NCBI GenBank assembly: GCA_905250025.1
Contig: CAJNOJ010000086.1
Span: 248,001-312,000, forward strand
Length of the DNA stretch: 64,000 nt
Reading direction: 5' to 3'
DNA from: Adineta ricciae
Taxonomy: Eukaryota > Rotifera > Eurotatoria > Adinetida > Adinetidae
Shown here in pieces: positions 1-30,290 of the stretch; the stretch's first letter is position 1; the number at the start of each line of letters is the position of its first letter. The notes under the pieces were generated by a model. The model worked only from the letters and a program-made list of their open reading frames with translations, made no database searches and was not told the DNA's origin. Made by a program: the position numbers and the translations under genes.

Positions 1-1960
1 ATTTCACCATGGCAATCGAATCACGGTCATCGGAAGAGGCTGATTGCAGTTCGAATAAATTCGTTTCAACAAATGGAATGCTATGTTCCACCCCCAGCAC
101 TATCGAATATCATCTCATCGTGCTTATCCATATTTTCGGTATTTTCCAATCGTAGTATATCACCATTACAATTAATCGGCCGAGAGAGAGGAAGTTCATT
201 ACCGACCTCGTCGGATATGTCCTCAGCGCAATACGACTCACCGTTCTTTTGTTTTTATACACTGCCACCTTCGATGCATTTATCCATTTTCTTACTATCG
301 TTGATATTAATTGTTTGTGCTGCGTTTATCATTCACGATTATGCGTCAGGTCTTCATTCATACTCGCTCATTCACAATCTTCGGTCACCTATTAATTGGT
401 TGATCATATTTCTCAGCGATCTTCTATTATGTTTAATTTGGTTACTCATTCTTATTCTTATTGCACGTTTCGTTCATTCATCGACATTCAATGGTCGATT
501 CTTTGCATTAACACCGCTCTTCTTCATTGTTAATTTACCCTTCATTTACCTTCTTGCGAAATTCTTCAAAGCTCCTGTACTAGGCGCAACAGTGATCATC
601 TTCATTCTGCAACTAGCACTCGTTTTGAACGCATTCAAAACTTTTATTGAACTCTTTCGTGGTTATCCTCTATTGTCATTAATTGTGCACATCGTCCGCT
701 GGTCGCTTCTACTTCTATTTCCAAACGTGAATGTATTCATCTTGATCGTGGCTGTACTTCGAAAGTCTTATTGTCAAATTGATGAGTCGATATTAGGACA
801 AGGCGGGGATGACTTTTCTCACGAACGATATCCCTACAAGATATTGATTCATACGTTGATTTTCGTTAGTCAATTTGTCATCTATTTTTTTCTACTCATT
901 ATGGTTGATCTTGGTAAAGTTCAGATTTCTATGTGCGAACGTAAGATCAAAATCAAAGTTCGTAGTGAAGCAGGAGATGATGATGTTCTCGAAGAGAAAA
1001 CTCGAATAAAATCAATGAGTAGTGCGAATCGACGGAAACAAGCGCTTGTTTTGGATAGCCTTACAAAACTTTACCGTGAAGCAATACATCCAGCGGTGAA
1101 TCAACTTTCATTTGCAGTGCCACGTGGACAATGTTTTGGTTTACTCGGATTCAATGGAAGTGGTGAGTATTTCGATCTAATCAATGATTCAAAAGAAATA
1201 TGTTTATGAAATGTTCTGTTTAGGTAAAACAACAACATTTCGTATGCTAGTTGGCGAATTACATTCAACCGATGGTCGAATCTATCGAAACCGACACGAA
1301 TTGATTGGTTATTGTCCTCAAAACGATATCGCATTTCCAGCATTAACGGTTGCACAAACTATTGATTACATTTGTCGTATTCACGGCATAGAACCTTCTG
1401 TATTGAATAATATAATCTTGAGTCAATTTCAATTAGGAAAATATCGACATCGACTAGTATCGAATTTGAGTGGTGGCACTCAACGTCGCCTTCATCTTGC
1501 TCTTTGTCTAATTGGATCACCAACACTTCTTCTACTCGATGAACCGACAGCTAAAGTCGATCCTGTTCTACGTAGTCATATTCGTCTTATACTGCAACAT
1601 CGTCCGATTAACACAGCTATTATATTCGCTTCACATTCAATGCTTGAATGTGAACAACTATGTGAACGATTGACTATTCTTGTTCGTGGTAATGCACGAT
1701 GTTTAGGTTCCATTGACCGTCTGAAAACAAAATATGGTGCAAATTATCGTGTGCGATTGACGTTACTTGAATCATCAGTACAAGTACCATCGCTTATTTC
1801 TGTTGAAAATAGTAATGAATATGTATATCCGAAAGGAAGTTTAGCAGAGTTATTCACACTGCTAGAAGGACTAGTAGAACAGCATCAAATTGCGGCAAAT
1901 TATACAGTACAACTAACATCGTTGGAACATATTTTTTTAACGTTTCAACATTCGATGTGA
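1..1960 (+). CDS. ABCA-family ABC transporter, copy 1 (5' end outside window)
   Basis: C-terminal half of an ABC subfamily A lipid/sterol-type transporter; the frame is open from base 1. Exons 1-1162 and 1224-1960; the 61-bp intron (GTGAGT...TAG) splits the last glycine codon before the Walker A lysine, giving GFNGSGKTTTF. About 632 residues are visible: transmembrane domain 2 with several hydrophobic segments (roughly residues 85-310), then nucleotide-binding domain 2 with Walker A, ABC signature LSGGTQRR, Walker B LLLLDEPTAKVDP and H-loop ASHS. All ATPase motifs are intact, so there is no sign of inactivation here. It matches the last two exons of the complete gene at 10134-14935 almost base for base, with the same intron position and length. 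Substrate cannot be read from sequence. The start and NBD1 lie before the window. Confidence 0.93.
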
Positions 1961-2192
1961 AGAACAAACTCTAGTCAAGTTTTATCTATGCACACCTCAG
2001 TGACTCATAAATATGCAAATTTTGCTTTTTTAGTGATAGAAGTTCATTTACTGAATATTTTGTATTTCGATATTTTCTACATTTTCAATAGATAAATATC
2101 AAAGAACTTAGTATAAACTAATACTTTTTTGATACTCGAAAGTACGAACTTGAGTTTTCGTCCTCGCTTTGACTTTTGAGTCTGACGTGAAT

Positions 2193-2202
2193 AAATATAA
2201 AG
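2193..2202 (+). promoter_or_regulatory. TATA-like box of SDR copy 1
   Basis: AAATATAAAG lies 67 bp before the ATG of the dehydrogenase at 2269. The same motif and surrounding bases occur before copy 2 at 15169-15178, so the core promoter was duplicated with the gene. The rest of 1961-2268 holds only the ABCA 3' flank. Confidence 0.45.
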
Positions 2203-2268
2203 GTAACTCATGCTATTATCTAAGCTATTCTATATCTTCAAAGTTGTCAAAGGTGACCAGCATTCAAG

Positions 2269-3246
2269 ATGTGTCTTACACTTTTCTTCATTATATCTGC
2301 TTATGTACTGTATCGAGTGTATCAATATTTTTTCCCAGCACCGGATGTAAATCCAACTGGTAAATATGTGTTGATTAGTGGCTGCGATACTGGTTTCGGC
2401 CATGGTCTAGCATTAGAATTAGACAAACAAGGCTTTCATGTTCTCGCTGGTATCTACAGTATAAACAATCAACAAAAACTAACATCACTTCTTTCCGATC
2501 GTGCAACTGTGTTCAAACTAGACATTACAAAACAAGAAGACATTGATGATGCATATAAACTAATCAGTAGTAAAACGCAAGTGCTTCATGCATTAGTAAA
2601 TAACGCTGGTGTTGGCGCTTGTGGTTATATTGATTGGGTGACAGTCGATTCCATACGTACAGTAATGGATGTGAATTTTTATGGACATGTGTCTATGACG
2701 AAAAAGTTTTTGCCATTACTTATTGCCAAACGTGATTCACGTGTGGTGAATATCTGTTCGGTTGCTGGTTATTTAGCTGCTCCAGGAATGGTTGCTTATT
2801 GCACATCGAAATACGCATTAGAAGCATTTTCTGATTGTCTTCGGCGAGAAATGTCGGTGTGGAACTTACGTGTGAGTATTATCGAACCAGGTTTTATGAA
2901 AACCCCGATTGTTGAGGGCCATGATGCATCGTTACGCACATTGTGGAACAGTTTGTCCACAGATGTGCAAGATCGTTGGGGAGAGCAACATTTAAAGAAA
3001 CAAGTCGAGGAAGTAGCAAACAATATTTTCATAAAATTCGCTGAAAATCCAAAGAAAGTTGTCAACGTTCTTAGACATGCCGTTATGAACACCAAACCGC
3101 AGATTCGTTATCGACCTGGATGGCAATCGAGTGTCTTAATGTTTACATTATCGACTCTTCCAGCACGGCTAGCTGATATTATTATTGAAAAGGCAAATAC
3201 AGCAGCTGTAAATCCGTCTGGTGTGCGTAGCCAGCTACAAAATTGA
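2269..3246 (+). CDS. Short-chain dehydrogenase (SDR9C/RDH16-17betaHSD6 type), copy 1
   Basis: Intronless, 325 residues. A hydrophobic N-terminal helix (about residues 3-22) should anchor it in the ER membrane, as in retinol and 17-beta-hydroxysteroid dehydrogenases of the SDR9C group. The cofactor motif is GCDTGFG at 38-44, followed by NNAG at 111-114; the catalytic set is Asn136, Ser164, Tyr177 and Lys181 in YCTSK. The SGCDTGFGHGLA start and the SKYALEAFSDCLRRE helix are typical of SDR9C. It probably oxidises or reduces retinoid or steroid alcohols with NAD(H); the substrate is inferred from the family only. About 20 of 325 residues differ from copy 2 (15245-16222). A mosaic third copy lies at 28164. 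A polyadenylation-type AATAAA follows near 3313. Confidence 0.92.
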   Translation: MCLTLFFIISAYVLYRVYQYFFPAPDVNPTGKYVLISGCDTGFGHGLALELDKQGFHVLAGIYSINNQQKLTSLLSDRATVFKLDITKQEDIDDAYKLISSKTQVLHALVNNAGVGACGYIDWVTVDSIRTVMDVNFYGHVSMTKKFLPLLIAKRDSRVVNICSVAGYLAAPGMVAYCTSKYALEAFSDCLRREMSVWNLRVSIIEPGFMKTPIVEGHDASLRTLWNSLSTDVQDRWGEQHLKKQVEEVANNIFIKFAENPKKVVNVLRHAVMNTKPQIRYRPGWQSSVLMFTLSTLPARLADIIIEKANTAAVNPSGVRSQLQN

Positions 3247-3540
3247 ACGAAGCCTTTCTCTTCTATTGAATTTTCTGTATGAACAAACAGAACTCTTTGC
3301 TTTTTTCCGATGAATAAATACTAAATTAGACGGTCTTACAATCGTTCATTAATAATTCATGACAGCGACATCCATCCGTTGAAATCACATCCGATTTGTT
3401 CTTTGTTCTTATCCAATCAAGGAAACATCTTCGTTCTTCTGTTTGTTATTCAATTGTCTTTTTTTGACGTTCGTTCAAAAGATATAAACGATTCATTGCA
3501 GATAGTACGAAGACAAAGAAATTCTTTTTTTTAACCAAAT

Positions 3541-4488
3541 ATGACTGATTTATTTGACTTGAACCTGATTTCCAATCAAGCAACGTCAAAATCTCGACGA
3601 ACGTATTCACAGAGAAATGTTTCATCACTTCAGCTTGAATTAACAAAAAATCGGAAGATGATCAATATGAAAACAGCGAAAACAACGATACTCAATCGAA
3701 CACTTAGTTTCAAACCAATGTCAGAAGCCAGGTTTGACCTGTTCTCTATCTTCTTCAGAAATCATTCTTTTGTTTAGCTCATCATTAGCTAATGTCGAAA
3801 ATACACCAATGAAAAAATCTTCAAGCAAATTCGAAACACCGACTACAAAACAAGAAGTTATCGAAGAGACACCAGTGAAAGATGATGATGTTGAAACTGA
3901 AAACATGCCATCGGATAAGATGATGCGTGATATTCAACGACTTTCTGTTCGTCTTCGTTCAACGATTCCATGTGCGATTGACATTCTCGTTGCAAATCGA
4001 ATTCAAATTCTCCTTTTCATTTTAGTATTCGACATTCCGGTGACAATTAGTCACACAATGAAACCCGCTACTCTTCATCTCTCTCAAGTGGCGAATCGTG
4101 TATCACGTTGTAATTATGTTTTGCGACATTTTGTTCGAGAAGCACAAAAATACTCACCCAAACTTACTGAAATACAAGTCGCAAACGAACCTGCTCTCCT
4201 CTCACAATCTTACGAAAGTATGTCCTACAGCTTGCTTTTCGAAATCAATCTAACAAACTTTTGTTTGTCCGAATATTTAAAGAAGGACGACGTCGTCTCT
4301 TCATTGATTCTCCACAACAGCATGATAACAATTCGATTTCCGAAAATCAACCACCCACAACACCGCGAAAAGCCAGTGGTGTTATTAAACAATTGTTTGC
4401 ATCACCTTCGGCATCATTCAAACGAACAACATCATCATCATCGAATACAAATATTATCGTTCACGATAAACGGCAAAAACTTTTCTAA
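3541..4488 (+). CDS. Novel TP/SP-rich protein, copy 1
   Basis: Not recognised. Four-exon model 3541-3731, 3778-3971, 4026-4217, 4283-4488 (260 residues); introns of 46, 54 and 65 bp. The joined frame fits the paralogue at 16517-17472 with the same junctions. Intron 2 is open in frame, so its removal is inferred from good GT/AG sites and from much higher divergence between the copies there than in the flanking exons. The protein is basic and Ser/Thr-rich, without membrane segments. It has several proline-directed sites (ENTPMKK, ETPTTK, KYSPK, DSPQQ, TTPRKAS, ASPS) of the kind cyclin-dependent kinases use, and a Ser-rich C terminus. A cell-cycle or nuclear role is possible but is a guess. A TATA-like AGATATAAACG lies about 60 bp upstream. 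Confidence 0.6.
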
Positions 4489-4575
4489 TTCTTATCTTGT
4501 TTCTTATTCTTGTTTTATCCTATACGCTCGAATGTGTAAATACAAATAATTATCTTTTTGCTTTCTAGATGACTA

Positions 4576-4792
4576 ATGGATATACGGTGCCGAGCATTAT
4601 ACGGCTCGTTACTGTTCGTATTTTTCATCGTTTGGATTCTCTTATTATCCGAACAATTTAATGAATCCTATCCGCCAATACATCGATCGATTCCACCAGC
4701 TGAACAATATGATTATGTCTTAGAGCCTGGTGACGATATTTGCTCAAACGACGGATCGTTACTATTGGTTGTGTATGTTCATTCGGCAATCG
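4576..4792 (+). CDS. Beta-1,3-galactosyltransferase, copy 1, cut off at an N
   Basis: The first 72 codons of a GT31 glycosyltransferase: short cytoplasmic tail, signal-anchor helix (about residues 7-26) and the start of the luminal stem. It is nearly identical to 17560-17776 of the complete copy, then stops at the ambiguous base 4793. Beyond that base the sequence is an unrelated gene on the opposite strand, so the catalytic domain is absent here. Whether the animal's gene is truncated or the assembly switches contigs cannot be decided from sequence; the lone N favours an assembly join. Confidence 0.85.
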
Positions 4793-4793
4793 N
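4793..4793. other. Ambiguous base at an abrupt junction
   Basis: The only N noticed in the window. To its left lies the duplicated block in plus orientation, to its right the 3' end of an MgtE gene in minus orientation. Neither gene has a stop codon before the N. A single N between two unfinished genes is typical of a scaffold join or collapsed gap. Confidence 0.9.
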
Positions 4794-5506
4794 TCTTTGT
4801 GTTTATGAGACGAAAAATTAACAAGCAGTGTTTGCCCAATAGCACAAGTAATACAAACACCAAGAATATCCATGACGACTTGAATAATCGGACCAGCATG
4901 TGCTGGATCAACATGTACGATACGTTGTAGAACGACTGGAAGAAGCGTCCCAAGTAAGATTGATGATGTTACAATACAGAATAAAGCAATAGCAATAGTT
5001 AATGATGGTAAAACTGCACCGCGTTCTTCAATCCAAACACGAACGAAGCCAACTGAAGTGACTAGCAGGCCAATAATAATCGCAGAAAATGTTTCTCGTA
5101 TAAGAAGTGGTCGAACAGAAAACGTCCGCGATGTTGCTAAACGACGAATAACTAAAACAGCTGCTTGATTACCGGCATTACCGCCAGCTCCGACAAGCAT
5201 AGTTAAATACATAGTTATTAAAATGTGCCGAGAAATTAGATCAGAAAATGATTGTAAAATAAATGATGAACCCGATTGAAGAATCAGTAAAAATGACAGA
5301 AGACAAACTCGAGACCAAATCGTATTTTGTCCTTCTGTTTCTTCTTCTATGTCATTTCGTTGTTTCGAGGATTTCTCCTTTTCACCGTCATCATCTAAAC
5401 GGCGACGAACATGTGCGACAAAGGTTTGCAAATCCTCAGAGGACAACGAAGAGAATTGTTCATCAAATGTATCAATAATTTTCAACGAACGATGCCGCTG
5501 TGTCAT
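4794..5506 (-). CDS. MgtE/SLC41-type magnesium transporter (3' end missing)
   Basis: 237 residues visible from ATG at 5506. A hydrophilic, acidic/basic N-terminal stretch (about residues 1-65) precedes one MgtE integral-membrane domain with five hydrophobic segments. It contains the family hallmark LVGAGGNAGNQAA, which lines the ion pore in MgtE/SLC41 proteins. Role: Mg2+ (or other divalent cation) flux across a membrane. The last hydrophobic segment ends about 15 residues before the N at 4793 and no stop is seen, so the protein may be nearly complete or may have a second domain beyond the junction. The start is the first ATG of the frame; an upstream exon is not excluded. Confidence 0.85.
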
Positions 5507-5733
5507 AGCAGGTAGACAAAAAAAATCTAAAAGTGTCGCAACATAAAATAGTAATATAGATTAAACATAGCCATGACAACATACATTCATATATGATAAC
5601 GAATAGCTATCAAACGCTATTATTACAGCAAGACTAATCGTTTGTTGTTTTTCTTTTTCTCATACAGCTACACGTCATAGTATAGTCAGAATCATCGACA
5701 TCCGACGTGAAGACGTAAAAGAAAGATGAAGAG

Positions 5734-5743
5734 TATATATAAG
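5734..5743 (+). promoter_or_regulatory. TATA box before candidate peptide gene
   Basis: TATATATAAG 33 bp before the ATG at 5776, correct spacing for a very short 5' leader. Confidence 0.4.
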
Positions 5744-5775
5744 TAAAAAGAACGGTGTATGTAGAAAAGAAAACT

Positions 5776-5946
5776 ATGAATCATCCTAAATTGTTTTTGT
5801 GCATCCTTTTGTTATTTGTTCTTTTTATTCATCAATTCGCAGAGCGATGTCGAAGATTAACGTCATTTCTTCTACTCTCTATAGAAGAATTAGTCAATCG
5901 ACTGGAAAGGAAATCATTTCTTCTTGACTTATTTGTTTTGCCATAA
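5776..5946 (+). CDS. Candidate small secreted peptide
   Basis: 56-residue frame starting MNHPKLFLC; not recognised. Residues about 5-20 form a strong signal-peptide core (LFLCILLLFVLFI), followed by basic residues (RCRR, RLERK) that could be processing sites, and a short hydrophobic tail. A good TATA box precedes it and its start sits where transcription would begin. It lies in an otherwise empty interval (5507-6245) between the MgtE and K2P genes. It could equally be a chance frame; there is no paralogue in the window. Confidence 0.3.
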   Translation: MNHPKLFLCILLLFVLFIHQFAERCRRLTSFLLLSIEELVNRLERKSFLLDLFVLP

Positions 5947-6245
5947 TTTCCCGAACAATCACCTTGGCAAATGACTGTATAATGCTCGACTTTCATCAAA
6001 CAAAGGAGCAAATATTCATTAGTTGAAGTGTTATTTGCTAAATATGATCACTATTAAATGACACCGAGCAGTGTGTGAAATAGAACAAGCGGAAATGTGA
6101 CTTGGATACTTGATCGTTCATTCCAATTATTATCCATGAAACCCTATTTAACGAGAAAAAAGAAAGTATAATTGAATGTATTCACATTGTTGTTTACAGC
6201 GATCATTTTAATATATTAAACGCCTACATTAGTGAGCAAAATAAT

Positions 6246-7892
6246 ATGTTAAGTGGAACGACTAGAATTCGTACTCTGCTTTATGTCGATGAGGACGATA
6301 ACAATGATGTTGACGATGACGAACAGGTATTTATGCGTTCGATTGAAACTATTCTAAAGAAAAATGACGAGTAGTGAAAAGAGAAAACGATCAAAGTCAT
6401 TTCGAGAAATCATCGAGTAATTAAGATGAATTATACTGCTCGTCGGAGTTACTCTAACTATATCACATCAAAGATAGTGCCTGTAAGATGGATCTAGCAG
6501 TTTATTCTTTTGTTTACAACGACAAATTTTCGTTTCATTTTAGTTCAAAACTATCTCAGGGGAAGTATCTCATTTACGATCGTCACAAGTTCAACGAATT
6601 CTTGCACCGCTGGTGGCTTTCGATGAAAATGGTGATATACCGCTTAGGGAAAGAAATTCTTCAAGTTTCGTGTCTGCTCGTCCAGTTTCATCGAACAGTC
6701 CTGTGGAATATTGCTGTGGTTTATGTCTATGGAATCGATTGCGACAAGATTTTTGTCGAATTTTTATTCAATTTTTATTTTCACAATTAGGTTTATTTGT
6801 GCTTGTTTGTATGTATATCGTTCTCGGCGGTTTTCTTTTCTATGGAATTGAATCCAAGTATGAATTACGAAAGAATGAACAAATTAAAATCAAACATTTA
6901 CACGGAATACATAAAATTCGTCAGATTGCAACCGACGAATTCAATTGGATGTTAAATGCCTCATTTGAATTACGTTATGCACTTTGGCGTGGAATGATCT
7001 CGCGATCAGATGAATACGACGATTATCGATGGCGTGTCTACGTGCACAGTGAAAGATTTGACCGATTGATTCATAACGAACTCGCTCGAATGCAAGCTGA
7101 TGAAGAGAAACTCTCTGATAAGCAAGATGAATCTTCCGCTACTTCATACGATCAAAAATGGACATTCTCAACAGCCATGCTTTATTCTGCAACAGTTATA
7201 ACAACAGTGGGGTATGGAAATATCACACCGAAATCTATGCTAGGCAAAATGTTCACGTGTCTCTACGCTATGCTTGGCATTCCTATAACAATTATGTATT
7301 TGACCAATACAAGTGATCTACTTGTTTTCCTTTTTGTTAAATATTATTCCATGATGTACAACTTCTTCCATCGGTTAATCAAACGATTTCGTCGATGGCG
7401 AAGATCGCACCAGAGAAGACGATCTGTGGAGGTAAATTATGAAATAAATTTTAACATATGCTTAGCAAATCTTGTTTTCCTAAGATTGATGATGAAGCAG
7501 CAGCAGCAGAACATCGTGTACCAATTTGGATAGCATTCAGCGTTCTTGTTTTATATTTAATAGCTGGTGCTCTTCTGTTTTCTCATTGGGAAGGATGGTC
7601 GTATGTCGATGGTGCTTATTTTTCGTTTATCACATTTACAACCATTGGCCTAGGTGATTTAGTTCCTGGCAAAGGAACGTTAACTGAGAACAAAAATGGT
7701 AAATCGGTTTTATGTGCACTTTATCTACTCTTTGGTCTCGCTCTAACAGCAATGTGTTTCAAATTGATGCAAGATGATATATTCGAATTGAGGCAACGCA
7801 TCTACTCAAAACTGGGATTTTCGATGTATCGAAATCAATATGTTTATCATAATCGACGGCAACATATGCAAGCGCGTGCAAGTAGCACGTGA
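6246..7892 (+). CDS. Two-pore-domain (K2P) potassium channel
   Basis: Exons 6246-6326, 6544-7431, 7485-7892 (458 residues). Exon 1 (27 residues, acidic) is inferred from an ATG, a CAG|GTATTT donor and matching phase; exons 2 and 3 are certain. K2P layout: TM1 about 109-129, a long extracellular cap (about 130-230), pore loop 1 with TTVGYGN (247-253), TM2, a basic cytosolic loop (RLIKRFRRWRRSH), TM3, pore loop 2 with TTIGLGD (around 375-381), TM4 and a short tail. Both selectivity filters are intact. Such channels carry background K+ leak currents at the plasma membrane; the subtype cannot be assigned. The first intron (217 bp) is longer than usual here. Confidence 0.9.
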
Positions 7893-8405
7893 TACATATC
7901 TTTTTTCTCGGGATTTATTCTTTTCTTTTGTCTAAAAAATACAAAACTTTAGAATTTTATTTGTTCTTTCATTCTTATGTCTTTTGTTTCTTTTTATCAC
8001 AACTGCATATGTCTTAGCACTACATAATACAAAAAGGTAGGTTGCATTCTCTCGAGTTATTCGATAATAATCACACAAATGCTAGCTGATGACGACAATC
8101 AATCGATGAAATTATCATTCATTAGAATATAGTAGCGAAACTAACTTTCTCGTTGAAATCTATCGTTTGGTAGCGACATCCAACGCAATCACCACAATCT
8201 CCATCATACATTTCTGATTCGTTTAACATGCAAGATAATGTTGAATATGTACTCATGTCGGCTGTTTTTATCCCCGTGTCTCATAAAGCAAAGTATATTC
8301 AGTTGAAATTGTTCTTTGAGTACTTTTCGACAGATAACTACTTATATTTCGTATTATAGACGCATTCTTTGATTTTAGTATAGTAAAATCCGAGAGAAGA
8401 TCTTG
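7893..8405. other. Intergenic, nothing recognised
   Basis: 513 bp of AT-rich sequence between the K2P stop and the ATP-grasp gene; it must hold the 3' end of one and the promoter of the other. No repeat or further frame supported. Confidence 0.5.
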
Positions 8406-9791
8406 ATGGCTTCAAGGCGTGTTTTGATCTTGGACGATTGCCAAATAGAATCGATTATCGAAGAGTATTCCTGGTCGGATTTAATCGATGATGATGATGA
8501 TATTGAGCTGTACATTTTAACAAGTACTGGTGCATTATCCGAAAAAGATAAGTCTTGTCCACGTGTTCGCGCTTATAAAGAAATCGATCATCCAACAACT
8601 GATGGAACACTCGAATTATGGTCGTATGAAATGCACAAAAAGCATTCATTTACACATGTTTATACCAAAAATGAAGATTTGATCATGCGTGTAGCGCATG
8701 TTCGTTCGCTGCTGAACATTCAAACAGGTTTAACATCTGAGACAATAGCAGCTTATCGGGAAAAGGTTGAAATGAAACAAACTGCGTCTCGAGGTGGTTT
8801 CCCTGTTCCACCGTTTGCTCGTTTGTATGCACCAGCTGATCTAATAGCTTTCATCGAAAAACAAGGATACCCCGTCGTCGTTAAACCGACCCTTGGTTGT
8901 GCAACATCAGGTCTGACATTAATCAAAACGCCTGCCGAGCTAGAAAAATTTCTTTCTGAAAAATTATTCACATGTATCGACATTGATCAACGAATGGATC
9001 TGGTCGGTGAATTGATGGTCGAAGGATACATGAAAGGACATATGTTTCATGTTGATGGCATTGCAAAAGACGGGAAAATTATTCATGCATGGCCATTTAG
9101 TTACCTTCATACATGTTTAGGATTCTCTCAGGAAGGTACAGCTTATGGTAATTCATCCATTCCGAAATCCCATCCACTTCATGATCGTTTATGTAAAACT
9201 GCTCAACGTTTACTCGATATTTTACCGTCTCCCAACGATGGACTGGTATTTCATCTGGAACTCTATGAAAATCTTAATGAAAACCGCTTACCGGACGATG
9301 ATTTCGTACTTTGTGAAATTGCTGCACGTGCACCTGGTGCTTCTATTACTCATCTCATCGATTTGTTATCATTTTCCGACGGTGATTCCAAGCAATCGTT
9401 TGCTCGATTAGACTTCCGTATAAGTGTCTCATTGCCCATCCCTAAGATAACTGAACCTCTCGCTGACAAAGTTGTCACCGATCTTATCATACCGCGCAAA
9501 CCCGGTAAACTTATGTATATACCACGTGAATGTCCAATCCATGATCTTCGGTATATACCCATAGCCAATGTAGACAAACCGACTGTTTATGAAAAATACG
9601 ATGTGAACGGCATGAATGCAGCTTGCCGATTTATCGCCCGAACAAAAACGATGGAAGAGGGACAAGAATTAGTGGAAAAAGGCTTTGAATGGTTCGACAG
9701 TGTGCTGATAAATACGCCATTGGACGAGCCATGTACGGTGGCATTAATCAAAGAACTACATCGCTATTTTCATAGGAAAATTTTTGCTTAA
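8406..9791 (+). CDS. Stand-alone ATP-grasp ligase-like protein
   Basis: Intronless, 461 residues from ATG at 8406. An N-terminal Rossmann-like lobe (about 1-110) with an Asp-rich insert is followed by an ATP-grasp fold. Visible motifs are the ATP-binding lysine in VVVKPTLGCATSG (Lys about 160), the GELMVEGY strand, and a metal-binding stretch ending EIAARAPG (Glu about 304), the equivalent of the E-x-N-x-R segment of carbamoyl-phosphate synthase, BacD and carnosine-synthase-like ligases. Such enzymes activate a carboxylate as acyl-phosphate and join it to an amine; the substrate here is unknown. Lack of introns among intron-rich neighbours and the bacterial-like single-module architecture make horizontal acquisition plausible. 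Confidence 0.82.
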   Translation: MASRRVLILDDCQIESIIEEYSWSDLIDDDDDIELYILTSTGALSEKDKSCPRVRAYKEIDHPTTDGTLELWSYEMHKKHSFTHVYTKNEDLIMRVAHVRSLLNIQTGLTSETIAAYREKVEMKQTASRGGFPVPPFARLYAPADLIAFIEKQGYPVVVKPTLGCATSGLTLIKTPAELEKFLSEKLFTCIDIDQRMDLVGELMVEGYMKGHMFHVDGIAKDGKIIHAWPFSYLHTCLGFSQEGTAYGNSSIPKSHPLHDRLCKTAQRLLDILPSPNDGLVFHLELYENLNENRLPDDDFVLCEIAARAPGASITHLIDLLSFSDGDSKQSFARLDFRISVSLPIPKITEPLADKVVTDLIIPRKPGKLMYIPRECPIHDLRYIPIANVDKPTVYEKYDVNGMNAACRFIARTKTMEEGQELVEKGFEWFDSVLINTPLDEPCTVALIKELHRYFHRKIFA

Positions 9792-10133
9792 TGTACCTTG
9801 TTTTGCTCAATGTAGGCTATTTATGAATCATTTTTAGTCGACTGATTATGTTATTCCAGCGCAATACTATAACGAAATAGGTAGTAAAACTATGCTGATA
9901 TTGAATACGCATTTATTCGTTTGTATATTCATGATCTTGTGAGAAGAATTTATTAAAACTATCGACATGTGCTGCCATCACAAAAATTTGTCGTTCTATT
10001 CGTCATCAGTCCATCTCTACTGATACATAGATCAATCAGAAAGAAAGAGCAATGAGTGTGGGAATAAGCGAAAAAAAGGAAGAGAAGGGAGAATGGTAGG
10101 TTTGTCAACTAGGTTTTGAAGGATAAATTCGAC
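9792..10133. other. Intergenic, nothing recognised
   Basis: 342 bp between the ATP-grasp stop and the ABCA start codon. Purine-rich near 10040-10095; no feature supported. Confidence 0.4.
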
Positions 10134-13100
10134 ATGTCTGTCTATCACCTTCGCTTACTAATTCAAAAATCCGCGCGTTATGCATGGCGTCGTCGAATTT
10201 TTCGCTGTTATCCGAAAATTATCTTCGAACTATTTGTACCTACTATTTGTATCCTTCTACTATGTCTTCTTCGCTGGATGCATTCACCTTCTTCACAAAA
10301 CGGTCCTCAAAACGACTCGTTGAATAGCACATCTTCACCTCGCATCCAAATCAGCCCTACATCGATTATTTCCCATCAGGGTTCTTTTCAAATTTTGAAT
10401 TACACATCCGTTTACCGATGTCCATCATCGAATATAGCAGTGGTGATTACATCTGAACAATTATTTAAACGTTTTACACGCATATGTCCGCGTAGTCACT
10501 TTATCTTTTCGTCTCAACAATCAGATGGACAAATTTTATTGAATACATCCGTAGACACACATCAGATTAGCTATCGATGCTTATATATCAACCCGCACTG
10601 GTGTTGGAAAACGAATCTATTGGCAAAAGAATCTGATACTGTACAAATTCAACATCCTTCGGCATCTCTTTGTTCTCATTTGGACACACAGGCATACAGT
10701 TTAGTACTGAAAGCTTATCTATCAATTGAATCGCTTCTAAACATACCACCGAATAAGCAACAGCTATTAGTTTATACATGGCCATGTTCATCATATGTTT
10801 CCGATGCACTTTTCACGCATTTTCCTCGGTTTACTTTTATCATCATTCTGGTTCTTGTTGATGGATGTATTATGTTTAGTTTTAATTTTCTTTTCCAAGA
10901 ACTCATCGAAGAAAAGCGTCAGGGAATAACCGAACTTCTCCGTTTACTTTCTGTTCGACCGTTACTCAACAGTCTCGCATGGTTTTTGCGTGTTCTCGTC
11001 ATTCAGTTACTAGCAAATTCAATTTTGATCTTCACATTGAAAATTTCATTCGACGGGGCAATCTACCTTGCTTACGTCACAATTTGGTTAATTATTCCAA
11101 CTATTCTCCTCTGGACAATTCATGTTCTCTCGCGATCGATTCTCGTTGCGCATGTGTTTAATAGTGCACTCAAGGCGTCGCTTTGGTCATGGTTCATCTA
11201 TTTTATTTCATTTTGGCTAGCGGTTTCCTCATCAGTGCAATTGCCATTAATAATTCATTTTATCGCTTCAATTTGGCTGCCGTTCTACTCAATAAAACGG
11301 ATATTTGTTGTTTTTATTCAAGTTAATACAAATGCCGGCCGTCATACAGATTTGTTACATGAAATTATTTATATTTGGCTATGCATGATCGTAGGTACTC
11401 TCCTTTTTTGGCTCCTAGCATTCTATTTCGAACGCATTCGACCAGGAAAATATGGGATAGCACGTTCCTGGTCATGGCCTTTAGATTACATTCACAAGAA
11501 ACAATCGAGACGAGAAAGTACTGATTTAACAATGGTAGAAATACCATCAAAACAGCAAACAACTGTTCGAATCAATAATTTAACGAAAAGCTATGGTCAA
11601 TACGGTGCTGAACGACAAGTTGCTGTTGATCATATTTCATTCACGTTAGAAAATTCGACAATACACGGACTAATTGGTCATAATGGTGCTGGTAAAACCA
11701 CGACCATGGAAATGATATGTGGTCTATTGTCTTGCGACTGTGGTACAGTTGAAATTCACAATAAAAACTTATCTGAAAACTTACATGAGCTTCAAGCATG
11801 CATTGGTTATTGTCCACAACAAGATATGCTCTTTTCGCACTTAACCGTTCGTGAACAATTAGAATTCTACGCTCGTATACGATCGAAGGGAAATTCCGTG
11901 GATAATTATCAAATTAAAGAACTGCTTAGTATGATGAGTATGAACGAACACGATCAAAAATTATGCCACACATTATCCGGTGGCATGCAACGGAAATTAT
12001 CGATCGCTTGTGCATTTGTTGGACAAGCAAATATCATAATTTTAGGTAAGATTTCATAGTTCATTAGAAAGCTTATATATGCTAGTTCGTATATTCTTTG
12101 TTACAGACGAACCATCAGCTTCCCTTGATCCTGCGGCTCGTCGGGCGCTTTGGACTTGGCTTCGCGAGCACAAAACGAATCGAACACTGTTAATATCGTC
12201 TCATCTATTGGATGAAGTCGAAGAACTTTGTGATTCAGTTATCATTCTTGATGCTGGTAAAATTCAAGCGCAAGGAACAATTCTTGAACTGAAACAACGA
12301 TACGGACCACCGGGTGATCAACTTCATCTTGATCAGCTGCCAAATTATATTCCAAATGAATGGATTATTGACGAAAATAATCAATATGTACAGATACCTG
12401 ATCGACAACAGTTTATCAGATTACTTGAACGATTGGAAAAAGATTATATTCATTATTCATTAAGGAATACAACGCTCGATGATGTTTTTCTTAGACTAGC
12501 GTCTTCAGAATCATCAACACAAGGTAACGAATTTCTTCGAATACTTTTCTTGACATATATGTATCGAATACTTTGATTAGACGAAGGCAATCTGAAATCT
12601 CAGATTGATGTATTATTTACGACTCGAACAAATTCGCGAATAACTGACCTATGGTTGCAACAAGTGCTTGGTGTATTTATTCGACGAAGTCAGATATTTC
12701 TACGGCGCGCTCGTCTTCTACCTATTGTCTTAATTCTTTATCTACTCTATGCTCTGGCTCCCATCTATTTACCTTCGTTCAATTCATCAACACAGGAACT
12801 TAGTTACATTATCTCATCTCCTTTAGAGCACATCAATGCAATGAATTTAAGACAATTTCCGGTCAAAACCGTGCCATTCTACTCTACATCAAAACAATTT
12901 CAAGAATACTTACAAAGTAAGATGGATTCTGCCGGTCTAAATCCGATCAATCTAATGTTGAGATAATTTTCAGGTATTTCACTATGGCAATCGAATCACG
13001 GTCAGCGGAAGAGGCTAATTGCAGTTCGCATAAGTTCGTTGCAACAAATGGAATGCTATGTTCCACCCCCTGCACTATCGAATATCATCTCATCGTGCTT

Positions 13101-14935
13101 ATCCATATTTTCGGTATTTTCCAATCGTAGTATATCACCCTTACAATTAATCGGTCGAGAGACAGGAAGTTCATTACCAGTCTCGTCGGATATTTCGTCA
13201 ACACAACACGACTCACCGTTCTTTTGTTTTTATACACTTCCACCTTCAATGCACTTATCCATTTTCTTACTATCGTTGATTTTAATTGTTTGTGCAGCAT
13301 TTATCATTCAAGATTATACATCTGGTCTTCATTCATATTCGCTCATTCACAATCTTCGATCACCTATTAATTGGTTGATCATATTTCTCAGCGATCTTCT
13401 GTTATGTTTTATTTGGTTACTCATTCTAATTCTTATCGCACGTTTCGTTCATTCGTCGACATTCAATGGCCGATTCTTTGCATTAACACCACTCTTCTTC
13501 ATTGTTAATTTACCGTTCATTTACCTTCTTGCAAAACTTTTCAAAGCTCCTGTACTAGGTGCAACAGTGATCATCTTCATTCTTCAACTAGCACTTGTTT
13601 TGAACGCATTCAAAACTTTTATTGAACTGTTTCGTGGTTATCCTCTATTGTCATTAATTGTGCACGTCGTCCGCTGGTCGCTTCTACTTCTATTTCCAAA
13701 CGTGAATGTATTCATCTTGATCGTGGCTGTACTTCGAAAATCTTATTGTCAAATTGATGAGTCAATATTAGGACAAGGCGAGAATGACTTCTCTCACGAA
13801 CGATATCCCTACAAGATATTGATTCATACGTTGATTTTCGTTAGTCAATTTGTCATCTATTTTTTTCTACTCATTATGATTGATCTTGGTAAAGTTCAGA
13901 TTTCTATGTGCGAACGCAAGACCCAAATCAAAGTTCGTAGTGAAAAAGGAGATGATGATGTCCTCGAAGAGAAAACTCGAATAAAATCAATGAGTAGTAC
14001 CAATCGACGAAAGCAAGCGCTTGTTGTGGATAGTCTTACAAAAGTTTATCGTGAAGCAATACATCCAGCGGTAAATCAACTTTCATTTGCAGTGCCACAC
14101 GGACAATGTTTTGGTTTACTCGGATTCAACGGAAGTGGTGAGTATTTCGATCTAATCGATGATTCAAAATAAATATGTTTATGAAATGTTTTGTCTAGGC
14201 AAAACAACAACATTCCGTATGCTAGTTGGCGAATTACATTCAACCGATGGTCGAATCTATCGAAACCGACGGGAATTTATTGGTTATTGCCCTCAAAATG
14301 ATATCACATTTCCAGCATTAACGGTTGCACAAACTATTGATTACATTTGTCGTATTCACGGCATAGAACCTTCTGTATTGAACAATATAATCTTGAATCA
14401 ATTTCAATTAGGAAAATATCGACATCGACTAGTATCGAATTTGAGTGGTGGCACTCAACGTCGTCTTCATCTTGCTCTTTGTCTAATTGGATCGCCAACA
14501 CTTCTTCTACTTGACGAGCCAACAGCTAAAGTCGATCCCGTTCTACGTAGTCATATTCGTCTTATACTTCAACATCGTCCGATTAACACAGCTATTATAT
14601 TTGCTTCACATTCAATGCTGGAATGTGAACAACTATGTGAACGATTGACTATTCTTGTTCGTGGCAATGCACGATGTTTAGGTTCCATCGACCGACTGAA
14701 AACAAAATATGGTACAAATTATCGTGTGCGGTTGACGTTACTTGAATCATCGGTACAAGTACCATCGCTTATTTCTGTTAAAAACAGTAATGAATACGTA
14801 TATCCGAAAGGAAGTTTAGCGGAGTTATTTACACTGCTAGAAGGTCTAGTGGAACAGCATCAAATTGCGGCAAATTATACAGTACAATTAACATCGTTGG
14901 AACATATTTTTTTAACGTTTCAACATTCGATGTGA
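10134..14935 (+). CDS. ABCA-family ABC transporter, complete copy 2
   Basis: Full-length ABC subfamily A transporter, 1521 residues, exons 10134-12045, 12107-12523, 12581-12916, 12974-14137, 14199-14935 (introns 57-61 bp). Order: cytosolic N terminus and TM1 with an extracellular domain (to about residue 240), further TM helices (to about 440), NBD1 (Walker A GHNGAGKTTTM about 514-524, LSGGMQRKL about 614, Walker B IIILDEPSASLDP split by intron 1), TMD2 (about 850-1190), NBD2 (GFNGSGKTTTF about 1270, LSGGTQRR about 1358, DEPTAKVDP about 1382). Both ATP sites look functional. ABCA proteins move lipids or sterols; this one is short for the class because of a small first extracellular domain. 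The start is the first ATG of the frame and begins a typical ABCA N terminus. It heads the complete duplicated block. Confidence 0.94.
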
Positions 14936-15168
14936 AGAGCAAGCTCTAGTCAAGTTTTATCTATGCACACCCTCAGTGACTCATAAATATGCAAACTTTG
15001 CTTTTTTAGTGATAGACATTAATTTACTGAATATTTTGTATTTCGATATTTTCTACATTTTCAAAAGATAAATATCAAAGAACTTAATATAAACTAAAAC
15101 TTTTTTGATACTCGAAAGTACGAACTTGAGTTTTCGTCCTTGCTCTGCCTTTTCAGTCTGCCGTGAAT

Positions 15169-15178
15169 AAATATAAAG
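15169..15178 (+). promoter_or_regulatory. TATA-like box of SDR copy 2
   Basis: AAATATAAAG 67 bp before the ATG at 15245, conserved with copy 1 at the same distance. Confidence 0.45.
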
Positions 15179-15244
15179 GTAACTCGTATTATTAACTAAA
15201 CTTTTCTATATCTTCAGAGTTGCTAAAGGTGACCAGTATTCAAG

Positions 15245-16222
15245 ATGTGTCTTACACTTTTCTTCATTGTATCTGCTTATATACTGTATCGAGCGTATCA
15301 ATATTTTTTCCCAGCACCGAATATAAATCCAACTGGTAAATATGTGTTGATTAGTGGCTGCGATACTGGCTTCGGTCATGGTCTAGCATTAGAATTAGAT
15401 AAACAAGGCTTTCATGTTCTCGCTGGTATCTACAGTCTAAACAATCAGCAAAAACTAAAATCACTTCTTTCCGATCGTGCAACTGTGTTCAAACTAGATA
15501 TTACAAAACAAGAAGACATTGATGATGCATATAAACTAATCAGTAGTAAAACGCAAGTGCTTCATGCACTAGTGAACAACGCTGGTGTTGGCGCTTGTGG
15601 TTATATTGATTGGGTGACAGTCGATTCCATGCGTAAAGTAATGGATGTGAATTTTTATGGACATGTCTCTATGACGAAAACGTTCTTGCCATTGCTTGTT
15701 GCCAAACGTGATTCACGCGTGGTGAATATCTGTTCAGTTGCTGGTTATTTAGCTGCTCCCGGAATGGTTGCTTATTGCACATCGAAATATGCATTGGAAG
15801 CATTTTCTGATTGTCTTCGGCGAGAAATGTCGGTGTGGAACTTACGTGTTAGTATTATCGAACCAGGTTTTATGAAAACCCCGATTGTTGAGGGTCATGA
15901 TGCATCGTTACGCACACTGTGGAACACTTTGTCTACAGATGTGCAAGATCGTTGGGGTGAGCAACATTTAAATAAACAAGTCGAGGAAGTAGCAAACAAT
16001 ATTTTCATAAAATTTGCTGAAAATCCCAAGAAAGTTGTCAACGCTCTTAAACATGCTGTCATGAATACCAAACCGCAGATTCGTTATCGACCTGGATGGC
16101 AATCGGGTGTCTTAATGTTTGCATTATCGACTCTTCCAGCACGGCTAGCTGATATTATCATTGAGAAGACAAATACAGCAGCTGTAAAACCATCTGGTGT
16201 GCGCGGTCAGCTACAAAATTGA
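15245..16222 (+). CDS. Short-chain dehydrogenase (SDR9C type), copy 2
   Basis: Intronless, 325 residues, same architecture as copy 1: N-terminal membrane helix, GCDTGFG cofactor site at 38-44, NNAG at 111-114, Ser164/Tyr177/Lys181 catalytic residues, all intact. The roughly 20 amino-acid changes from copy 1 cluster in the N-terminal anchor and the C-terminal third, away from the active site, as expected for two functional paralogues or diverged alleles. It sits in the same position between the ABCA and TP/SP-rich genes. AATAAA follows at about 16289. Confidence 0.92.
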   Translation: MCLTLFFIVSAYILYRAYQYFFPAPNINPTGKYVLISGCDTGFGHGLALELDKQGFHVLAGIYSLNNQQKLKSLLSDRATVFKLDITKQEDIDDAYKLISSKTQVLHALVNNAGVGACGYIDWVTVDSMRKVMDVNFYGHVSMTKTFLPLLVAKRDSRVVNICSVAGYLAAPGMVAYCTSKYALEAFSDCLRREMSVWNLRVSIIEPGFMKTPIVEGHDASLRTLWNTLSTDVQDRWGEQHLNKQVEEVANNIFIKFAENPKKVVNALKHAVMNTKPQIRYRPGWQSGVLMFALSTLPARLADIIIEKTNTAAVKPSGVRGQLQN

Positions 16223-16516
16223 ATTAAGCCCTTCTTTTCTATCGAATTTTCTGCATGAACATACAGAACGCTTTGCTTTTTTCTGATCAATAAATATCAA
16301 ATTAGATGATCTTACAATAGTTCATTAATAATTCATGACAGCGACATCCATCCGTTGAAATCACATCCGATTTGTTCTTTGTTCTTGTCCAATCAAGGAA
16401 ACATCTTCGTTCTTTCTGTTTGTTGTTCAATTGTCTTTTTTTGACGTTCGTTCAAAAGATATAAACGATTCGTTGTAGAGAGTACACAGACAAAGAAATT
16501 CTTTTTTTTACCAAAT

Positions 16517-17472
16517 ATGACTGATTTATTTGACTTGAACCTGATTTCCAATCAAGCAACATCAAAATCTCGACGCACCTATTCCCAGAGAAATGTTTCA
16601 TCACTTCAGCTCGAATTAACAAAAAATCGGAAGATGATCAACATGAAAACAGCGAAGACAACGATACTCAATCGAACACTTAGCTTCAAACCAATGTCAG
16701 AAACCAGGTTTGACCTCTTCTCTTTTTAATCTTCTTTAGAAATCATTCTTTTGTTTAGTCCATCATTAGCGAATGTTGAAAATACGCCCATGAAAAAATC
16801 TTCAAGCAAATTCGAAACACCGACTACAAAACAAGAAGTTATCGAAGAAACGCCAGTGAAAGATGATGACGTTGAAGCTGAAAACATGTCATCGGATAAG
16901 ATGATGCGTGATATTCAACGACTTTCTGTTCGTCTTCGTTCAACGATTCCACGTGCGATTAATTTCCTTCTTGCAAATCGAATTCAAACTCTTCCTTTCA
17001 TTTTAGTATGCGACATTCCTGTGACAATTAGTCACCCAATCAAACCCGCTACTCTTCATCTTTCTCAAGTGGCGAATCGCGTATCACGTTGTAATTATGT
17101 TTTGCGACATTTTGTTCGAGAAGCACAAAAGTACTCACCCAAACTTACTGAAATACAAGTCACAAACGAACCTGCTCTTCTCTCACAATCCCACGAAAGT
17201 ATGTCCTACAGCTTGCTTTTCGAAATCAATCTAAGAAACTTTTGTTTTTCCGAATATTTAAAGAAGGACGACGTCGTCTCTTCATTGATTCTCCACAACA
17301 GAGTGATAGCAATTCGATTTCCGAAAATCAACCACCCACAACACCGCGAAAAGCCAGTGGTGTTATTAAACAATTGTTTGCATCACCTTCGGCATCATTC
17401 AAACGAACAACATCATCATCATCATCGAACACAAATATTAACGTTCATGATAAACGGCAAAAGCTTTTCTAA
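16517..17472 (+). CDS. Novel TP/SP-rich protein, copy 2
   Basis: Second copy of the unrecognised protein at 3541. Exons 16517-16707, 16759-16952, 17007-17198, 17264-17472 give 261 residues; one extra Ser codon in the C-terminal Ser run is the only exon length difference. Intron 1 is 51 bp against 46 bp in copy 1. All splice sites and phases are conserved, which is the best support for the model. Same TP/SP motifs, no membrane segment, strongly basic end (KRQKLF). No function assigned. Confidence 0.6.
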
Positions 17473-17559
17473 TTCTTATCTTGTTTCTTATTTTTGTTTT
17501 ATCCTATACGCTCGAATGTGTAAATACAAATAATTATCTTCTTGTTTTCTAGATGATCA

Positions 17560-18622
17560 ATGGACATTCGGTGCCGAGCATTATACGGCTCGTTACTGTT
17601 TGTCTTTTTCATTGTTTGGATTCTCTTATTATCCGAACAATTTGATGAATCCTATCCGCGAATACATCGATCGATTCCACCAGCTGAACAATATGATTAT
17701 GTCTTAGAGCCTGGTGACGATATTTGCTCAAACGACGGATCGTTACTATTGGTTGTGTATGTTCATTCGGCAATCGAAAACCGTCATCGTCGAGAATCGA
17801 TCCGTACAACGTGGGCATCTCGTTCAATCTTTGGCAAACATATACGAGTGTTATTCATGTTAGGTTCAAGTCATAATGCTGAATTAATGAAACAGACTCA
17901 ATTTGAATTCGATACATATCGAGACATAGTTCAACAAAAATTCATCGATGCCTATCGTAATTTGACATACAAAGGTAGAATGAATCTATGAGGAAATACT
18001 GTACATATCTTTACATGTTGAATGAATTCTAGGAATTATGGCATTAGATTGGATATCGAGACATTGTAATCGAGTGCGATATGTTTTGAAAACAGACGAT
18101 GATATGTTAATCAATATGTTTTCGATTCTGAACCATTTATACACTCTAACATACGTTTATCCGAATGAAAGTTGGCATTATACAATTGCGTGTTTGATGT
18201 GGCGACAAATGCGTGTGACACGCGATCGATCATCGAAATGGTTTGTCTCATCGGATGAATATCCTTATGAACATTTTGCATCCTATTGTTCCGGATCGGC
18301 GTATTTTATTACTCAGGATTTGATTCGGCCACTTTTTGAAACAACTCGTTCGATTCCATTCTTTTGGATTGATGATTATTATATAACTGGCCTATTGCCA
18401 CGTGCCATTCGACCAACGATTCATGTTAATTATTTATATATCAATTCTCTATTTGTTGTCAATGTTGACCTAGTTGAACAACGATTTCTTTCACCTTTCG
18501 GCCTTGCTTCACTTGCATTTGCCCATATGCCATTATCAGTCAATCGTCTTTTACATGTTTGGCAACATCTGATGATCAATAGTCAATCTGCACAGAAATA
18601 TCTCAATCGTACTTATATCTAG
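17560..18622 (+). CDS. Beta-1,3-galactosyltransferase (GT31), complete copy 2
   Basis: Type II Golgi glycosyltransferase, exons 17560-17974 and 18033-18622 (58-bp intron), 334 residues. Signal anchor about residues 7-26, stem, then the GT31 catalytic domain: the RRESIRTTWAS segment that opens the fold, the metal/nucleotide-sugar motif TDDDM (Asp160-162), and WIDDYYITG, the counterpart of the conserved E-D-V-Y-V-G region. It should transfer galactose or GlcNAc in beta-1,3 linkage to glycoprotein or glycolipid acceptors; donor and acceptor are not readable. It is convergent with the GH65 gene, whose stop is 174 bp away. AATAAA lies near 18658. Confidence 0.9.
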
Positions 18623-27200: not shown

Positions 27201-28163
27201 TTTTTCGTTACGTATTTGTCACGGCAATCAAATACTTAAGCAATTCCGCGACATGCACGATCAAAATCAACAGAAAGAGCAAAAAATATATATTTTTATT
27301 TAAACGAAGCCACGTTCATACTTCTCTCCGATGCGAAATACGCCCGTTTTCTAGATTATCGCTCGTCGGAGCATAAACTCTAGATGGTGTGTACAAGAAC
27401 AAAAAAAAATAATGAAAAGAAAATGTCATGAGACCAAATAGTACGTTGTAACGAACGAGCAGTATGAAAGAAACAGTAGAGAACATATTTGTAAGTACGT
27501 TTATTCGTGCTGTTTGTGTTATTTAAAACTCATTTTTTTGGAGTGGGTCGGAAGAAAAAGTACTGCTGAGTGTCATGAAATTAAAATATAACTCACATTA
27601 AAGTCGAAGAACACACGAAAGCGTTATATTTTCTAACTGCTAATCTCTCGCTATCGAGATATTTCACAATCGTCAACTAGAAAGATTGAATGCATATGAA
27701 TGTTAATTTGAAATCTTTAGATGGCATGGTATTCGATATTCGATGTACTGTTTGACAGTTGGTGACGACTCGCTACTATCGAGTAAATTTTAAAAGAATG
27801 ATCTTCGGTAAGATTTCGTTTGAAACTGAAGTTTTTCATATTGAAGTGAAGAAAATAGAGAAAAGAACAACCTCAAGAAATACTTTATTTTCATTGCTTC
27901 GAGTATTTTTTCAAATTGATATTTTAAAAGAAAAACTTTTCTAAGCTGTAAGACATTTTATTTTCCACTGTCTATCGTGATAGTCACTATCTGAAAGCCT
28001 CACAATGGTTATGGGCCGTTCGTCCGACGATTGTAGCTGCATAAACTATAAAAATAAACATGTTTTGTATACCAGCCATAGCCACTGATAATGAAATATT
28101 TTTAAAAAAAGATAAAGAAGCTAGTTTGCCTACTTTCATATATCGTTCTCAAATACGAAAAGG
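24290..28163. other. AT-rich gene desert
   Basis: 3.9 kb with only short, low-quality frames (for example 25466-25705 minus, 26236-26520 minus, 26784-27023 plus), none with a recognisable domain, and some overlapping on both strands as expected by chance. No terminal repeats, tRNA or transposase seen. It must contain the promoter of the GT gene (left) and of SDR copy 3 (right). Confidence 0.5.
28045..28055 (+). promoter_or_regulatory. TATA-like box of SDR copy 3
   Basis: ACTATAAAAAT 109 bp before the ATG at 28164. The upstream sequence is not similar to that of copies 1 and 2. Confidence 0.35.
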
Positions 28164-29138
28164 ATGTTGACCTATGTTATACTTGTGTCTACAATTTTGA
28201 TCAGCTACAAAATCTATCAGTACTTGTTTCCAACACAAAATATAAATCCAATTGGTAAATATGTGTTGATTAGTGGCTGCGATACTGGTTTCGGCCATGG
28301 TCTAGCATTAGAATTAGACAAACAAGGCTTTCATGTTCTCGCTGGTATCTACAGTCTAAACAATCAACAAAAACTAACATCACTTCTTTCCGATCGTGCA
28401 ACTGTGTTCAAACTAGACATTACAAAACAAGAAGACATTGATGATGCATATAAACTAATCAGTAGTAAAACGCAAGTGCTTCATGCATTAGTAAATAACG
28501 CTGGTGTTGGCTATGGTGGATTGATTGATTGGATAACGTTAGAATCGATGCGAAAAATGATGGATGTCAATTATTTCGGACACGTGTCTATGACGAAAAC
28601 GTTCTTGCCATTGCTTATTGCCAAACGTGATTCACGTGTAGTGAACATCTGTTCAGTTGGTGGGTATTTAGCAACGCCTGGAATGGCTTCATATTGTTCA
28701 TCGAAATACGCATTGGAAGCATTTTCTGATTGTCTTCGGCGAGAAATGTCGGTGTGGAACTTACGTGTGAGTATTATCGAACCGGGTTCTATGCGAACAC
28801 CTATGACCGATGGACTTTTGAATTCTATGAAAAATCTATGGAGCGAATTACCCACAGATGTTAAAGAACGATGGGGTGAAAAATTTTACTCATATTCAAT
28901 TGAACGTTTTGTTTCACACGGATTGATGGAAAGAGCAGAGAATCCCAAGAAAGTTATCAATGTACTTAAACATGCGGTGATGAATAGTAAACCATGCATA
29001 CGCTATCGTCCAGGGCTACAATCGCCAATAGTCTTTCCACTATCAATAGTGCCAACTTGGTTAGCTGATAGAATTCTAATGATAGTTATGGGTTCACCGT
29101 ATCAGCCAACTTGTCTTCGTCATCAAATGCAAAGTTAA
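28164..29138 (+). CDS. Short-chain dehydrogenase (SDR9C type), copy 3, mosaic
   Basis: Intronless, 324 residues, same fold and active site as copies 1 and 2: membrane helix about 3-22, GCDTGFG, NNAG, SVGG-type Ser, YCSSK with Tyr and Lys present. Ends and several internal blocks are clearly diverged (the C-terminal 100 residues share only part of their positions), but 28254-28511 matches copy 1 (2359-2616) at all but one base, while copy 1 and copy 2 differ at about ten bases there. Later short tracts (around 28584-28630 and 28698-28783) are again nearly identical to copy 2 or copy 1. The protein looks functional, so this is a paralogue partly overwritten by gene conversion. Confidence 0.92.
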   Translation: MLTYVILVSTILISYKIYQYLFPTQNINPIGKYVLISGCDTGFGHGLALELDKQGFHVLAGIYSLNNQQKLTSLLSDRATVFKLDITKQEDIDDAYKLISSKTQVLHALVNNAGVGYGGLIDWITLESMRKMMDVNYFGHVSMTKTFLPLLIAKRDSRVVNICSVGGYLATPGMASYCSSKYALEAFSDCLRREMSVWNLRVSIIEPGSMRTPMTDGLLNSMKNLWSELPTDVKERWGEKFYSYSIERFVSHGLMERAENPKKVINVLKHAVMNSKPCIRYRPGLQSPIVFPLSIVPTWLADRILMIVMGSPYQPTCLRHQMQS

Positions 29139-30290
29139 TGTTAATATTATTTCAACAGCAGAGTAAGAATAAGGATGTTGACGTCGTTTTGGCAGATGAC
29201 AATTCGTCCCAACTACTTTTCGACCGAGTTTATTCTGTCTTTTCACAATTTTTGTCTCAAATACAATTTATCTTAATAATATGTTGTGTTTTCATATCTC
29301 GTCCGCTTACAAGTAGCCCTAATCTTGTGTTGTCGTGTTGCATTCTGTCTCAATTTTCTTTTCTTTTCTACGTTTCATTCCACAATTTCACTGCTAAAGC
29401 CAATCTCTTTTTATATGAAAGCAAATGCTGTGTATATACAGACAACTCCATTTGTATACGGTGGAACGTCGCTATCTCAAAAGATCAATAAAGAAAAAAA
29501 CGTATTTTCTGTCCTTTACATATAGATATGGACATTATTTCTTTGTGATTTGTTTATCTCATAGCGCTATGTCTTACAACGTCGACAGTATTAAAGATTA
29601 TTCATACCGAATCTCGTGAATTTGAAACTCAAAACTTGAATTTTCCTAAAAAAAAAACAGATCGAAACTAAATTTAGTCAATGTGTAAAAGTGGAATATC
29701 AAATGAGAACTAATTGTAAGTGGACTATATGTAAAGAATTGACATATTATTAAAGCAAGTTGTATTCGAAATGAACTATGAAAAGACGGAATAAAATTGA
29801 ACGAAAATTATGTGAGACGTATAGTATACAGACGAAATGTAAGGAGATGGAATGTAGGGGACGAAAAGTAGGAGTATCTTTAGTCATGTTGACCGCTGAT
29901 GTTTCGTATGACATCATCAAAAAGATAATTCATTAATATAAGATTTTCTTTCACATTTGTTTAAATTAAATCCTCGATTCAACAATGCAAATAAAACAAT
30001 GCATCCTCTTCCTTTTTGTCATCCGAACATCTTCATCATTTGTTAGAGGATTTGTAAATATACATCGTCGTCTTTAACTAAACGAATCTCTTCATTCTCT
30101 TTTCTCTATCATCATCATCATTATCTTCTTCGTTTTCCTTGTCTTTCGCATCGTGTCTCTGTTCATTCGATTTGACTGAGCAAACAAAGACGACATGATG
30201 TTCGTGATGTAATCCGTTGACATAGTAGCATAAGAGATTAAAGACGTATATACGAAATCGATGAACGAATCAAGTTAAGTCACACATATA
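29139..30290. other. Intergenic interval
   Basis: 1.15 kb between SDR copy 3 and the FERM gene. Short frames near 29111-29619 have no recognisable product. A CAT-rich simple stretch lies near 30105-30125. Nothing else supported. Confidence 0.45.

Follow-up and report, generated by a model that had tools for sequence, protein, structure and literature searches.

The window analysed here is a stretch of 64,000 nucleotides of the Adineta ricciae genome (C86:248001-312000; G+C content 36.6%), taken from an assembly of 130.5 Mb in 1033 contigs. Three SDR reading frames lie on its forward strand: c1 (2269..3246), c2 (15245..16222), and c3 (28164..29138). The last of these is an intact ORF of 324 codons that matches Pfam adh_short (4e-43) and carries what we take to be the cofactor motif together with aligned catalytic residues, which makes it a DHRS9-like SDR, a dehydrogenase that is probably membrane-bound; the NCBIfam models shown match below their curated cut-offs. 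Like the DHRS9 / 17β-HSD1 type SDR enzymes (PDB 9b2f, 1a27), c3 has the SDR domain, the cofactor motif, and an aligned Asn-Ser-Tyr-Lys; unlike them, it belongs to a set of 16 close paralogs and is characterised by sequence alone. An inverted repeat (29199-29825; arms 29199-29250 and 29774-29825, 75% complementary) begins 60 bases past the c3 stop, and sequence related to it, mobile-element-like, is present on C145, C617, and C437. Elsewhere in the window, a direct tandem repeat of about 180 bases occupies 46262-46887 within the ORF 45596-47326, with copies 91-95% alike.

Codon alignment of the c1, c2, and c3 ORFs divides c3, on the forward strand throughout, into seven segments. The 5' end (28164..28253), probably the N-terminal anchor region, has diverged to 51% identity with c1. 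It is followed by a first tract (T1, 28254..28511), which includes the cofactor motif and NNAG and in which, as the original prediction stated, c3 differs from c1 at only 1 of 258 bases (base 28356) and from c2 at 9, while c1 and c2 differ from each other at 10. The abrupt collapse of identity described for 28512-28583 is also borne out: in this unconverted island (I1), which contains the aligned catalytic Asn and positions 95-96 of the 17β-HSD1 pocket, c3 and c1 share just 49 of 72 bases (68%). The second tract (T2, 28584..28639) has 3 differences from c1 and 3 from c2, with no c3-private base; the resemblance to c2 noted near 28590-28620 is real for 28587-28616, where c3 and c2 are identical, but does not extend to T2 overall. 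A second unconverted island (I2, 28640..28698) holds the catalytic Ser164 and Tyr177 and a pocket loop. The third tract (T3, 28699..28783), with Lys181, has 1 difference from c1 and 2 from c2; base 28698, which the original prediction had included in it, is private to c3. The 3' third (28784..29138) is 56% identical to c1 (197/351). Beyond the coding sequence, flanks of 600 bases give only 10-14-base matches between c1 and c3. Another paralog as the source of the islands was rejected, the best of the 15 others reaching at most 72% identity in I1 and at most 78% in I2.

The original prediction treated c1, c2, and c3 as three gene copies. The first two, however, most likely represent a single gene, whose two alleles the assembler has placed one after the other. 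Two units on the forward strand, 94.1% identical, carry them: the right end of the first occupies 1..4792 of the window (the unit, C86:239797-252792, starts outside it) and the second spans 4794..17776 (C86:252794-265776). Exactly between the two, at 4793 (C86:252793), is a lone N marking a scaffold join, and the homology of the units stops exactly on either side of it; no other N occurs in the 83 kb inspected, nor anywhere across 4794-64000. The divergence between units, 5.57% over 13 kb, is at the level of alleles in A. ricciae, for which a median of 4.55% is given for separately assembled coding homologs (PMC5916493). A second copy near 94% was sought for three flanking stretches and was not found. 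Copies of about 93-97% identity ending at Ns were seen on both of the other two contigs inspected, which were chosen because they contain allele-like SDR pairs: in C522:24001-52394 copies flank the N at 27741 and another takes up the space from the N at 40929 to that at 42096, and in C285:38001-58000 Ns terminate two copies. Intercopy gaps have been published as a sign of false duplication, and c1 and c2 resemble the false heterotype duplications described in PMC9516828: they look like alleles, share a scaffold, and have the gap precisely where the copies join; the proof presented there came from read depth and k-mers, whereas the present case is known from the assembly itself. That c1 and c2 are instead true tandem paralogs, so that three loci exchange sequence, would agree with their tandem placement and with the existence of some real tandem SDR copies (a cluster on contig C4 without N), but the position of the only N, the allele-level divergence, the N-bounded copies on the two other contigs, and the lack of a second copy near 94% for the searched flanks make it improbable. 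The assembly is not purely haploid, since allele-like copies of further SDR genes are found on different contigs, and false duplications seem to be recurrent in it; counts of tandem genes or of exchanges therefore need a check for Ns.

Searching the assembly with the c3 protein gave 73 matches at E ≤ 0.001. The 16 paralogs used here, c3 included, are 51-100% identical; they comprise c1, c2, c3, a six-gene cluster at C4:448-456 kb, one further gene on that contig (C4_864k), and six single sites. The 57 weaker matches were left out. The neighbourhood of C4_864k resembles that of c1, with ABC-transporter and downstream sequence at 68-78%. Ten other SDR pairs were screened, of which eight (five on one contig, three on two contigs) were rejected as further cases of conversion since they are uniformly 92-97% identical over the whole matched length, as alleles are. 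The pair on C89 gave no match, its stretch having 4,417 Ns over the fetched loci. A pair at C285:45001-51000 matched partially, with most of 1 kb at about 90-100% but stretches within the initial 240 bases at 70-78%, and is possibly another mosaic or the edge of a copy. What we take to be the bdelloid telomere repeat had 38 matches against 44 for a reversed control, and thus no excess.

All 120 pairs of the 16 paralogs were tested for clustering of identical codons among the codons for the same amino acid, with 2,000 permutations per pair. Three pairs reached the permutation floor: c1-c3, c2-c3, and the members of the C4 cluster at 449.9 and 453.7 kb (C4_449k and C4_453k). Eight further pairs had uncorrected p values of 0.018-0.05, roughly the chance yield for 120 tests. 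For c1-c3, none of 400,000 permutations equalled the highest-scoring segment of silent-codon identity; for c2-c3, 3 of 400,000 did, and for the C4 pair none of 400,000; the same permutation test found no clustering in the allele-like control pairs c1-c2 and C71-C14. Between c1 and c3, 123 of 128 silent codons are identical in the tracts as against 37 of 83 outside them (islands 13/25, ends 24/58), and in 54 control paralog pairs silent identity is 39-53% in each of the seven segments. A tree of T1 with c3 outside the group of c1, c2, and C4_864k is rejected (p-AU 0.0018); the non-tract columns place c3 elsewhere, yet do not reject a clade of c1, c2, and c3 (p-AU 0.295). GC bias was discarded as a cause, there being no consistent rise in third-position GC within the tracts. 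Within bounded tracts, c3 and a non-allelic gene share more silent-site identity than chance would give, and the mosaic is best explained by interlocus gene conversion. The claim that such conversion into c3 was repeated, probably occurring more than once, is upheld by the near-identity of T1 to c1 and the equal distance of T2 and T3 from c1 and c2.

The second conversion pair lies among the six SDR paralogs at C4:448826-455708. Its members lie within an N-free stretch, separated by about 3.8 kb, and their T1 is only about 62% identical to that of c1, so the case is independent of c1-c3. With segment limits preset from c1-c3, identity between the two is 97%, 96%, and 93% in T1, T2, and T3, 72% and 70% in I1 and I2, and 67% and 55% in the ends. 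Identical silent codons number 116 of 124 in the tracts and 19 of 26 in the islands (p 0.005), and the islands of this pair are less diverged at silent sites than those of c1-c3 (13/25). The core profiles of the two pairs are correlated (r 0.73; 5 of 180 circular shifts as high), and a partial r of 0.733 remains once general conservation is removed.

Alignment of c3 to human 17β-HSD1 gives N136, S164, Y177, and K181 as what is presumably the catalytic tetrad. N136 falls in I1 and S164 and Y177 fall in I2, and the tracts, with K181, the cofactor motif, and NNAG, correspond to the cofactor-binding half and scaffold. The original prediction that conversion keeps the catalytic core uniform is thus unsupported as worded, because three of the four catalytic positions are in unconverted islands. 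It can be kept in a changed form, in which the scaffold would be homogenised while divergence continued in the substrate loops and at the two ends. Twenty 17β-HSD1 residues are listed in PMC3153478 as lying within 4 Å of two inhibitors; of these inhibitor contacts in a distant human enzyme, 16 could be aligned and 4 were dropped. The tracts of c3 hold 2 of the 16 positions, 14 being outside (7 of 243 shifts as low), and both of the two are at tract edges, one in the last codon of T1 and one in the codon spanning the end of T3. T1 ends one codon ahead of the first differing pocket position. In the C4 pair, with tract limits set by hand, 1 of 16 positions is in a tract (1 of 243 shifts as low). 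These distributions suggest, but do not prove, selection against conversion of the loops that determine substrate specificity.

A reading without conversion, in which the tracts are just those stretches of the protein under the strongest constraint, would agree with T2 and T3 being the better conserved segments in control paralogs (amino acid identity 76% and 83%). However, codons are nearly identical at silent sites in the tracts alone, T1 in the 54 control pairs (46% silent, 64% amino acid) does not exceed I1 (53%, 59%), and control conservation barely predicts the profile of either pair (r 0.07 for c1-c3, 0.21 for the C4 pair). Purifying selection alone is ruled out by the silent sites, and this reading has hardly any chance of being correct. 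A chimeric or collapsed assembly, with T1 in c3 being misplaced c1 sequence, is conceivable given the false joins elsewhere and the reliance here on the assembly. It is nevertheless very unlikely, as there is no N across the whole of 4794-64000, the agreement between c1 and c2 extends through the gene and past it, the mosaic would demand several switches at 60-260 bp, and the C4 pair has the same pattern on an N-free stretch. Insertion of one c1 fragment into c3 would need no intron, and a copied piece could yield T1 by itself; that T1, T2, and T3 are all in register, replace homologous sequence without a change in length, and differ in their closeness to c1 leaves this account scarcely credible.

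Conversion being the best explanation, the footprint common to the two pairs may reflect local homology rather than selection, the tracts ending where the sequences become too different. A distance limit on conversion is established, with conversion mainly seen above 80% identity according to PMC3924818, and similarity among the controls is lowest at the ends and in I2 (54% and 57% nucleotide identity). In I1, on the other hand, the controls are as similar as in T1 (67% and 66%), but c1-c3 show no conversion there and the C4 pair is diverged. Local homology could account for the ends and for I2, though not for I1, and we give it a little less than an even chance. The identity of only about 66% between control paralogs in T1 is itself below the range of more than 80% typical of conversion, which means either that conversion acted on very diverged copies or that it has been ongoing since the copies were alike.

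The direction of transfer was probably into c3. The divergence of c1 from c2 in T1 is ordinary (10/258, compared with 5.6% over 13 kb), so T1 would have been copied into c3 and not from a diverged c3. As to the donor haplotype, c1-private and c2-private sites stand at 1:9 in T1 and at 14:6 outside the tracts (Fisher p 0.005, with 12 three-state sites dropped), a baseline whose polarity depends on c3 itself. When C4_864k serves as the outgroup, sites outside the tracts give 7 c1-derived against 13 c2-derived states, and in T1 c3 has 5 of 5 c1-derived and 0 of 3 c2-derived states, with 2 of 10 sites unresolved. The c3-polarised baseline, its reversal to 7:13, and the nearly saturated silent sites to C4_864k make the polarity of the donor weak. 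In the T1 tree the c1+c3 branch has support of 95/37, but a grouping of c1 and c2 without c3 is not rejected (p-AU 0.185), and the tree therefore does not prove c1 to be the sole donor. In addition, c3 is on the contig piece carrying c2, so that donation by c1 requires transfer between homologues or a phase switch. With moderate confidence, T1 is considered recent and c1-like, and T2 and T3 older. The unconverted silent sites of c3 are as far from c1 as those of unrelated paralogs, so its age is only bounded.

Taken together, c3 is very probably an old paralog that has been partly overwritten, probably at least twice, by interlocus conversion from the gene represented by c1 and c2. The donor, probably displayed as two alleles, would lie about 13 kb from c3; T2 and T3 would stem from an older exchange and T1, whose closest match is the c1 haplotype, from a recent one. 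Double-strand-break repair with a non-allelic template may be the mechanism, and selection may purge conversions that overwrite the substrate loops. The favoured course is one in which conversion would have been repeated since the copies were alike, the ends having escaped first. A more specific proposal is that conversion in this SDR family repeatedly homogenises the cofactor-binding scaffold between paralogs saturated at silent sites, and that selection spares the substrate-pocket loops, hence the same footprint in independent pairs, with the recent tract of c3 coming from the opposite haplotype; this we offer tentatively, as somewhat less likely than not.

Mosaic conversion with islands is already known. 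GOT1p1/GOT1p2 of Tigriopus californicus likewise have adjoining regions of low and high divergence in a paralog pair, a pattern interpreted in PMC3728101 as conversion in which selection possibly maintains the islands. Compared with the account given there, c1-c3 differ in the saturated silent sites outside the tracts, in the second pair with the same footprint, and in the location of the islands at the substrate pocket, all within one assembly. Recombination work in A. vaga, as cited here, concerns exchange between homologs (PMC7749112), and among the literature matches listed no title deals with conversion in bdelloid SDR genes, which is not proof of absence. The footprint common to two pairs is the feature that deserves a family-wide test, and its occurrence in two independent pairs makes the idea of loop-sparing conversion testable. 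If that idea is true, a tandem enzyme family would share a proven cofactor scaffold and keep its substrates distinct. In a bdelloid, the c3 mosaic would also record non-allelic exchange in a lineage whose recombination is debated.
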